A DNA stretch of 64,000 nucleotides from Paracoccus sulfuroxidans (GTDB lineage Bacteria; Pseudomonadota; Alphaproteobacteria; Rhodobacterales; Rhodobacteraceae), in the NCBI RefSeq assembly GCF_007830335.1, contig NZ_VLKU01000007.1, positions 1-64,000 on the forward strand. The letters run 5' to 3'. The position numbers and the translations under genes are program-made. Positions 18,855 to 21,442 of this stretch are shown here, in pieces (the stretch's first letter is position 1; each line of letters begins with the position of its first letter). Below the pieces are notes generated by a model. That model saw only the letters and a program-made list of their open reading frames with translations. It was not told the DNA's origin and did no database searches.

Positions 18855-19556
18855 TCAGCGCTTCAGGGCCGCAGCCTCATCCTCGGGCGACAGCGGCGCG
18901 CCCATGCCCGCCAGAGCATCGTCCAGCCCCGGAATATCGCCGCTGGCCGGAACGAAGCCCTCGGCATCCCCGGTCATGGTCGCGGCAAAGCGGTTTTCCC
19001 AGCCGTCCTGCGTCCGGCAGGCCAGCGAGACCGTGACCTGCGGCGTGCCGCGCGTTTCATATTCGCGGCAAAGCGTGCCGTCCGCATCGCGATAGGAGGC
19101 GATCACCGTCAGGTCACCGCCGCCCTCCAGCACCTGCACCTCGCCCGAGGGAAGGCTGTCCAGCGCGGCGATCTCGGCGGGCGCGATGCCGGTTTTGCGG
19201 TCCATGCCGAACCAGCCGACCGCCACCACCGCCAAGGCCACGGCGGCCGCAATGGCCTGCCACGGGCGACGGTTGAGGTTCGCGGGCGCGGGTGTCTCGA
19301 TACGGGCCGGCTCGATGCGGGTCGGCTCGGCCGCAGAAGTCTGCGCCTTGCGGATCATCGCGATCAGCGGATCATCGGCGGGGGTCGCCTTGGCCGATCC
19401 CGCCGCCTCTTGCAGCAGCCGCCGCGTCTCGGAAAACCGGCGCAGCCGGGCCTGCAGGGCGGGATCGGCGTCGACCGCCTGCTGCACGGCCTGCGCCTCG
19501 TCGGCGGCAAGCTCTCCATCCGCCAGAGCCATGAGTGTTTCGTCACTGATCTGCAT
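18855..19556 (-). CDS. transmembrane anti-sigma factor
   Basis: The 233-residue protein has an N-terminal cytoplasmic domain starting ISDETLMALADGELAADEA, typical of alphaproteobacterial anti-sigma factors. It lacks the HxxxCxxC zinc motif of ZAS proteins. A membrane helix lies at about 100-117 (WQAIAAAVALAVVAVGWFG), followed by a periplasmic domain of about 115 residues containing two cysteines (CREYETRG, LACRTQDGW). It should hold the ECF sigma factor encoded 52 bases upstream in the same operon inactive until an envelope signal arrives. Its periplasmic domain could be the target of the protease encoded divergently, which is inference. Confidence 0.85.
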   Translation of the reverse strand: MQISDETLMALADGELAADEAQAVQQAVDADPALQARLRRFSETRRLLQEAAGSAKATPADDPLIAMIRKAQTSAAEPTRIEPARIETPAPANLNRRPWQAIAAAVALAVVAVGWFGMDRKTGIAPAEIAALDSLPSGEVQVLEGGGDLTVIASYRDADGTLCREYETRGTPQVTVSLACRTQDGWENRFAATMTGDAEGFVPASGDIPGLDDALAGMGAPLSPEDEAAALKR

Positions 19557-19608
19557 CGGGCTTCCTTACCGTCACGGAGAGATGATTCATATACGCGGGA
19601 GCAGCCAT

Positions 19609-20106
19609 TTAATTCCCCGCCATGCCCAGTTTTTCCGAAAGCGCCAGACGGGCGCGGGCCAGTCGGCTCATCACCGTGCCCTTGGGAATGTCCAGCACAT
19701 CGGCGGTTTCGGCGTAGCTGAGCTGTTCGATACAGACCAGATGCAGGACCTCGCGCTGTTCCTCGGGCAGATCCTGCATCGCCACCTCGACCGATTGCAG
19801 CATCAGCCGCGCCTCGATCCCGGCTGAGGGGTCTGTCGGCAGGCTTTCGGGCATCTCGAACACATCGACCTCGATCCCCGCCGTGCGCTTGCGCCTTGTC
19901 ATGTCGATGAAGGCATTGCGCATGATGCGAAACAGCCATGGCTCCAGTTTCTGGGCCGGGTCATAGCTTCTGGCATTGGCAATCGCCCGCTCGACGGTGA
20001 TCTGAACCAGATCGTCTGCGATATCATGCCGCCGTGACAGCGACAGGCCAAATCGGCGAAGATTGGGCAAAAGGCGAACCAGAGCATCACCGAAAGCCGG
20101 ATCCAT
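19609..20106 (-). CDS. ECF-family RNA polymerase sigma factor
   Basis: A 165-residue sigma factor made only of region 2 (about 15-80, with DIADDLVQITVERAI and FRIMRNAFIDMTRRK) and region 4 (about 105-160, with LPEEQREVLHLVCIEQLSYAETADVL and the recognition helix GTVMSRLARARLAL), as in ECF sigmas. GGAGAGA precedes the ATG. The anti-sigma gene follows on the same strand, and the S8 protease gene diverges from the shared 97-base upstream region. It probably activates its own promoter and perhaps the protease. The ECF group was not determined. Confidence 0.93.
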   Translation of the reverse strand: MDPAFGDALVRLLPNLRRFGLSLSRRHDIADDLVQITVERAIANARSYDPAQKLEPWLFRIMRNAFIDMTRRKRTAGIEVDVFEMPESLPTDPSAGIEARLMLQSVEVAMQDLPEEQREVLHLVCIEQLSYAETADVLDIPKGTVMSRLARARLALSEKLGMAGN

Positions 20107-20203
20107 CAGATCTCTCCGCGTTGAGAAGAAAAATTAACCAATCCTTGGACTAATACTGATCCCGGGCCGTAGATGTCGAGAACGCTTGCAAAACGAGGTC
20201 GGA

Positions 20204-21442
20204 ATGTCGCGCATTCTTTTGTTCATCATTGCCCTGTTGACCGTTCTGGCCATGGACCTGCGGACCGGACCCGATGGTCTGGGTGCCCTTTCGGCGGCCT
20301 ATGCCGATGACGACGACGATGATGATGACGACGATGACGCTCCGGTCGTGCGCCGTCCGGCCCCGGCCCGAGCGCCCGCCCCGCCCCGCATCGTGCCGAA
20401 TGAGCTGCTGACCCAGGGCCTGATCGAGCCCGACGTCGCCTTCCTGCAGGCGCGGGGGTTCGAGTTGTTGCAGACCCGCGTGCTGGTCGACGGGACCATG
20501 GCGCATCGGCTGCGCAAGCCCGCGTGGCTGACGATGGCTCAGGCACGCCGCGCGGTCAGGGACCGCGCCAACAAGCCCGTCGACTTCAACCACTATTACC
20601 GCCCCTCGCAACAAGCCGCCTGCACCGGCCCCGACTGCCCCGCGCGCAGCATGATCGACTGGCCGCAGGCGACGGCGGCCTGCGGCAAGCCGCCCCTGAT
20701 CGGCATGGTCGACACCGGGCTGAACCCCGATCACCCGGTCTTCGCCTCTTCCAGGGTCGAGCTGCACCGCATCCAGCGCAATGCCAGCGCGTCAGAGCAG
20801 GTCCACGGCACGGCGGTCGCCTCGCTGCTGGTGGGGGACCCGCAAAGCCGCTCTCCGGGTCTGTTGCCGGGCGCGCAGCTGATCGCTGTTGACGGCTTCC
20901 ACAATGCCCGGGGCGATGAGCGTATGGACGCGTTCGCGCTGATCGAGGCGCTGGACCTGCTGGCGCAGAAGGGCGTGCGGGTGGTGAACCTGTCCTTCGC
21001 GGGCCCCGCGAATGAGGCATTGGGGCAGCAGCTGAAGATGCTGGATCAGAAGGGGATCGTGCTGGTCGCGGCGGCGGGCAACTTCGGCCCCTCGGCCAAG
21101 CCCGCCTATCCCGCCGCCTATGAGCAGGTGATCGCGGTCACCGCCGTCGACCGGCGGGGCCAAATCTATCGCCGCGCGAACCGGGGCCAGTACATCGATC
21201 TGGCGGCACCCGGCGTCGATGTCTGGACGGCAGCCTCGGTCAGTGGCGCGCGCGTGCGCACCGGGACCTCCTATGCCGCGCCCTTCGTGACGGCGGCGGC
21301 AGGGCTTTTGCTGCAGCAGAACCCCGAGCTGACGCCGCAGCAGGTGAAAGAGCGGCTGCAGGCCTCAGCCCGCGATCTGGGCGAAAACGGCCGCGACCGG
21401 GTCTTCGGCCACGGCCTGCTGACGCCGCACAATCCCTGCTAG
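20204..21442 (+). CDS. exported S8 (subtilisin-like) serine protease with an Asp11 tract
   Basis: The 412-residue protein starts with a hydrophobic signal sequence (about 1-28), then eleven consecutive Asp residues (about 33-43) and a proline/alanine-rich linker. The subtilisin triad is complete: D170 (GMVDTGLNP), H201 (QVHGTAVAS) and S356 (TGTSYAAPF); the oxyanion region AAAGNFG is also present. Residues 55-150 could be an inhibitory pro-domain. The Asp run uses mixed GAT/GAC codons, so it is a real protein tract and may bind calcium. GAGGT precedes ATG 20204. It diverges from the sigma/anti-sigma operon and may process an envelope target of that system. Confidence 0.88.
   Translation: MSRILLFIIALLTVLAMDLRTGPDGLGALSAAYADDDDDDDDDDDAPVVRRPAPARAPAPPRIVPNELLTQGLIEPDVAFLQARGFELLQTRVLVDGTMAHRLRKPAWLTMAQARRAVRDRANKPVDFNHYYRPSQQAACTGPDCPARSMIDWPQATAACGKPPLIGMVDTGLNPDHPVFASSRVELHRIQRNASASEQVHGTAVASLLVGDPQSRSPGLLPGAQLIAVDGFHNARGDERMDAFALIEALDLLAQKGVRVVNLSFAGPANEALGQQLKMLDQKGIVLVAAAGNFGPSAKPAYPAAYEQVIAVTAVDRRGQIYRRANRGQYIDLAAPGVDVWTAASVSGARVRTGTSYAAPFVTAAAGLLLQQNPELTPQQVKERLQASARDLGENGRDRVFGHGLLTPHNPC

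Follow-up and report, generated by a model that had tools for sequence, protein, structure and literature searches.

An RpoE6-EcfR6-SMa0142-type ECF26 unit with a divergent, probably sigma-driven subtilase gene in Paracoccus sulfuroxidans

Introduction

When the genes for an ECF sigma factor and a membrane anti-sigma factor lie back to back with the gene for an exported protease, the question is whether the protease is a product of the signalling pathway, a regulator within it, or simply a neighbor. We address this question for a locus of Paracoccus sulfuroxidans that lies in a window of 64,000 nucleotides (positions 1 to 64,000 of contig NZ_VLKU01000007.1; all focal coordinates refer to it). 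A preliminary description made from the sequence had proposed that the three genes form one signalling module of a kind not previously described. In Sinorhizobium meliloti, rpoE6 and SMa0142, a serine protease gene, are divergently oriented, an arrangement that was called widely conserved among ECF26 sigma factors in 2018 (PMC6180224). Overexpression of RpoE6, which is classed as ECF26 in both PMC6180224 and PMC10880074, raises SMa0142 (4.7 in Table 1), and SMa0142 is listed as one of the leading targets of this sigma factor (PMC6180224). Our analysis indicates that the focal locus is very probably an ECF26 unit of the RpoE6-EcfR6-SMa0142 type, in which the sigma factor drives the divergent subtilase gene and the subtilase is mainly an output.

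Results

The unit consists of the following genes.

18855-19556, minus strand: membrane anti-sigma factor, EcfR6-type, 233 aa, 33% identical to S. meliloti EcfR6 (L084)
19609-20106, minus strand: ECF sigma factor, RpoE6 orthologue, ECF26 type, 165 aa
20204-21442, plus strand: S8 (subtilisin-type) protease with predicted export, SMa0142 orthologue, 412 aa from ATG
20186, plus strand: alternative protease start, TTG, yielding 418 aa

The ATG at 20204, which has a purine-rich GAGG ahead of it, is the better protease start, and the TTG at 20186 is a possible one. Pfam assigns Sigma70_r2 and Sigma70_r4_2 to the sigma factor (9e-14 and 8e-15) and Peptidase_S8 to the protease (1e-41); the anti-sigma factor matches RseA_N and zf-HC2 weakly, below cut-off.

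Orthologues of all three genes are found in a stretch of S. meliloti pSymA (L084), with identities of 50% for the protease, 50% for the sigma factor, and 33% for the anti-sigma factor, and the published RpoE6-dependent SMa0142 promoter string sits between the genes there. When RpoE6 is used to query the focal genome, the focal sigma factor is returned first (E 3.7e-47, next 6e-28), and SMa0142 likewise returns the focal protease first (2e-104, next 4e-5). Membership in the RpoE6 branch of ECF26 is thus indicated by orthology, since the sigma factor is 50% identical to RpoE6 and its best match in the genome, and the layout is that of ECF26 as well: a downstream anti-sigma factor with an N-terminal sigma-binding-like domain, one transmembrane helix, and a periplasmic C-terminal domain. 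Because it is orthologous to the published RpoE6-EcfR6-SMa0142 unit, the locus belongs to a known kind; the suggestion that no such system had been described was mistaken, given that the ECF26 arrangement had been reported in S. meliloti (PMC6180224). The focal locus is a good further example of a known unit and not a new system. Another RpoE6-like ECF sigma factor, 40% identical to RpoE6 and possibly another ECF26 member, is encoded on the same contig outside the window (G000:C7:191649-192116).

The surroundings of the unit include a large RTX-repeat protein (12444-15845) with an HEXXH zinc motif and Peptidase_M10_C and PPC domains, which is probably a second secreted protease a few kb away. 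Immediately beside the unit, positions 21455-25319 encode a DUF305 protein, a P1B-type heavy-metal ATPase carrying three HMA domains, and a MerR regulator, likely a copper-handling cluster.

Gene order was compared among relatives. In a genus sample of 25 genomes, 13 carry a close protease homologue, with 14 copies in total, and in all 13 non-focal copies the protease gene is divergent from and next to the sigma and anti-sigma genes. P. denitrificans PD1222 has the unit too, and outside the genus this gene order recurs in Sinorhizobium, Nitratireductor, Neorhizobium, a Kiloniellaceae MAG, a Hyphomicrobiaceae MAG, and Sphingopyxis. The arrangement, whose conservation had been named as a check on the proposal, is therefore not confined to one strain: it holds in 13/13 other genus copies and in further alphaproteobacterial orders. 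A sigma gene lies within 1.5 kb of S8 genes of the focal clade in 26/29 loci at the family level and in 20/29 at the class level, and of less related S8 genes in 0/13. The three-gene arrangement is beyond chance, and the conserved divergent order across the Alphaproteobacteria bears out the view of the locus as one signalling module. Compared with the focal flanks, genus relatives have the decarboxylase gene near one copy and the copper genes near none; because the flanking genes vary in this way, we take the unit to be the sigma factor, the anti-sigma factor, and the protease. A search of viral contigs for relatives of the unit found none.

Two further observations concern individual loci. 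Within the focal S8 clade, seven loci (L104, L105, L106, L111, L113, L114, and L115) form a fully supported sub-clade with no sigma gene within 1.5 kb. In one genus member (G020, locus L043), the frames of sigma factor, anti-sigma factor, and protease are all broken at about 6711-9205 while long flanking frames are intact, as if all three genes had decayed jointly or the sequence were in error.

The 97-bp spacer between the sigma and protease genes holds a candidate promoter of the ECF26 type.

20147-20170, plus strand: predicted ECF26 promoter toward the protease, GGACT-N16-CGT (GGACTAATACTGATCCCGGGCCGT), with one -35 mismatch (GGACT for GGAAT)

We searched 30 loci for the strict pattern GGAAT-N16/17-CGT at no more than 200 nt from the sigma start, using dinucleotide shuffles as the control. 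The strict pattern faces the protease gene in 24/30 loci (shuffles: mean 0.29, maximum 3), a count that overstates the number of separate events because the loci are partly non-independent, with two S. meliloti strains and many loci from one genus among them. The promoter is thus of the ECF26 type (-35 GGAATA, -10 GT) in its strict form in those 24 loci and with one mismatch in the focal locus, where the distance of the promoter-like site from the sigma gene matches that in relatives. The strict pattern faces the sigma gene, as autoregulation would have it, in only 5/30 loci. Right after the protease -10, most genus members have a TGTCCA block (focal TGTCGA, 20171-20180), which may be part of an overlapping sigma-gene promoter. 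The proposal that the sigma factor controls the protease is backed by the conserved ECF26 promoter together with the induction of SMa0142 by RpoE6 (PMC6180224), and on this analysis the sigma factor most likely turns on the protease in the focal organism.

The anti-sigma factor was resolved into three parts.

19398-19556, minus strand: cytoplasmic anti-sigma domain, residues 1-53 (model pLDDT >80 for residues 1-50)
19203-19265, minus strand: predicted single transmembrane helix, about residues 98-118, hydrophobic stretch PWQAIAAAVALAVVAVGWFGM, by inspection
18942-19184, minus strand: periplasmic 17-kDa-surface-antigen-like beta domain, from profile comparison, with invariant Cys163 and Cys180

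As the preliminary description had stated, the protein has no zinc motif, HxxxCxxC being absent. The best alignments of the predicted structure of its N-terminal domain are with the domains of ChrR, RskA, and MucA (Z 5.2-5.7, ranks 1-5). Profile comparison relates the periplasmic domain to members of PF16998 (probability 95, P 2.8e-8) with a score of 53.4, against at most 18.8 for shuffled-profile controls. The focal anti-sigma factor does not reach the Pfam gathering score for PF16998, so we call the domain 17-kDa-like and not a member of that family. When the whole anti-sigma model was used in a fold search, the periplasmic part matched nothing with confidence. Across the aligned orthologues the two periplasmic cysteines are invariant, in the motifs CRE and AC(R/K), and the domain, which had been thought unusual, is the normal one for this anti-sigma family. 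A subtilase prodomain was considered as an identity for it and rejected, its profile score of 10 being one that shuffled controls also reach.

For the protease, we located the following features.

20306-20338, plus strand: Asp11 tract that immediately follows the predicted signal peptide, a variable linker in orthologues
20684-21415, plus strand: Peptidase_S8 catalytic domain (Pfam)
20711-20713, 20804-20806, and 21269-21271, plus strand: catalytic triad Asp170, His201, and Ser356

The triad is complete, as claimed, and invariant in 20 orthologues; with the oxyanion Asn293 present in at least 90% of orthologues, the protein has the features of an S8 serine peptidase. The tract does contain exactly 11 Asp, and most orthologues have an Asp tract after the predicted signal peptide. 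A role of this acidic tract in sensing calcium is unsupported, the tract being absent or Gly-rich in several orthologues, including SMa0142, where its counterpart is Gly-rich. Because its length runs from 42 consecutive Asp down to none, we reject calcium sensing as a conserved function; in our reading, the tract is a low-complexity linker and not a conserved calcium sensor.

More distant subtilases of the clade (about 31-45% identical) are paired, usually in one operon, with a different ECF sigma factor (24-31% identical to the focal one) and with an anti-sigma factor whose periplasmic domain resembles a fervidolysin-type subtilase prodomain. These prodomain-type loci are L052-L054, L056-L068, L070-L072, L079, L118, L121-L123, L126, L128, L130, and L131. 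PF22148 matches 8/18 of the prodomain-type anti-sigma factors at E up to 0.1 (best 2.3e-4, one over cut-off). Profile comparison of the domain with genuine prodomains gives a P of 1.8e-5 and a score of 31.7 (shuffled maximum 13.8), and with the partner proteases' own prodomains the resemblance is weak, with scores of 16-20 against shuffled maxima of 13-16. A PDB sequence search with the domain found no match, and a single-sequence model of the Acidobacteria representative (L079) was of poor quality. All 11 full-length prodomain-type anti-sigma factors detected at E <1e-20 in 289 genomes of the class adjoin an S8 gene, the S8 neighbors having been identified by an independent search. One genome, G369, has both types, the focal 17-kDa-like type (C36, L108) and the prodomain type (C61, L134), and in the latter the anti-sigma gene is divergent from the protease gene. 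Our search of mainly open literature for anti-sigma factors with subtilases or prodomains found no description of a prodomain-type pairing, and this separate pairing is apparently undescribed. In the S8 tree the prodomain-type loci are basal in the clade and the focal type is nested as one group, with only moderate support (0.52). A further reading, which we think unlikely, is that proteases of this S8 clade are ancestrally physical partners of membrane anti-sigma factors, which in one branch carry the prodomain-like periplasmic domain, and that in the focal branch a 17-kDa-like domain with an ECF26 sigma factor took over the role.

Discussion

In the mechanism that we propose for this stress-signalling unit, the N-terminal domain of the anti-sigma factor, whose fold resemblance was tested and whose binding is inferred, would keep the ECF sigma factor at the inner membrane. 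An envelope signal acting on the 17-kDa-antigen-like periplasmic domain would release the sigma factor, perhaps through regulated proteolysis ending with RseP, a site-2 protease that is encoded in the focal genome (262 bits, over cut-off). The free sigma factor would then transcribe the divergent subtilase gene from the ECF26 promoter in the spacer, and the exported subtilase would be primarily an output, presumably acting either within the envelope or extracellularly.

The unit resembles S. meliloti RpoE6-EcfR6-SMa0142 in its genes, their divergent order, and the type and spacing of the promoter facing the protease; it differs in its genomic context, a longer acidic tract, and the one -35 mismatch. 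The S. meliloti RpoE1/RpoE4 and EcfR1/EcfR4 systems (ECF26, sulfite response) share the ECF group and anti-sigma layout but differ in neighbors and targets, a likeness drawn from the description in PMC6180224. Like E. coli RpoE-RseA-DegS-RseP, the focal system has a membrane anti-sigma factor with a probable cytoplasmic sigma-binding domain and an RseP homologue in the genome, whereas its protease, a likely target, belongs to the S8 and not the HtrA type and is encoded divergently. ECF54 systems (PMC8999054) also have a subtilase in the gene context of an ECF sigma factor, but they are described without an anti-sigma factor, and proteolysis of the sigma factor itself was proposed for them.

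Could the subtilase also be the site-1 protease, cutting or binding the periplasmic domain of the anti-sigma factor and thereby creating positive feedback on the sigma factor? The linkage of sigma factor, anti-sigma factor, and S8 protease has been kept over large distances, and the S8 clade is likewise tied to a second, different sigma/anti-sigma type; the prodomain-like domain of that type, found beside an S8 gene in 11/11 cases, hints at contact between anti-sigma factor and protease. The focal anti-sigma factor, however, lacks a prodomain-like domain (the profile score of 10 given above), and how such sigma factors are activated stays hypothetical according to PMC6180224, and we regard a site-1 role here as doubtful. 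Somewhat better placed, while still falling short of an even chance, is a scheme that makes the protease an effector and nothing more and has the sigma factor respond to an unrelated signal, for example the oxidative or disulphide state of Cys163 and Cys180. Both cysteines are invariant in the aligned orthologues, which a structural disulphide would explain equally well, and methionine sulfoxide reductase genes (msrB and msrA) lie right downstream of the Nitratireductor anti-sigma gene (L086, 5442-6391), a linkage seen in that single locus only.

That the genes are neighbors with no regulatory link, the protease gene being transcribed by housekeeping RNA polymerase, would suit the mismatch in the focal -35. 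Against it stand the order conserved across orders, the conserved promoter, and the published induction of the orthologue (PMC6180224), and we find it very improbable. The reading we prefer remains a sigma factor that drives the divergent subtilase gene as its output. What speaks against this preferred reading is the focal -35 mismatch, the presence of a strict promoter toward the sigma gene in only 5/30 loci, and the seven S8 loci of the clade that have no sigma gene nearby.

The unit is a clean test case for the switching of ECF26 sigma factors, which the S. meliloti authors called hypothetical. On the unlikely ancestral-partner reading given above, the anti-sigma factor of the prodomain branch would bind or be cut by the adjoining protease, and the sigma factor would read protease activity directly; the prodomain-like pairing would make a sigma factor sensing a protease directly testable.
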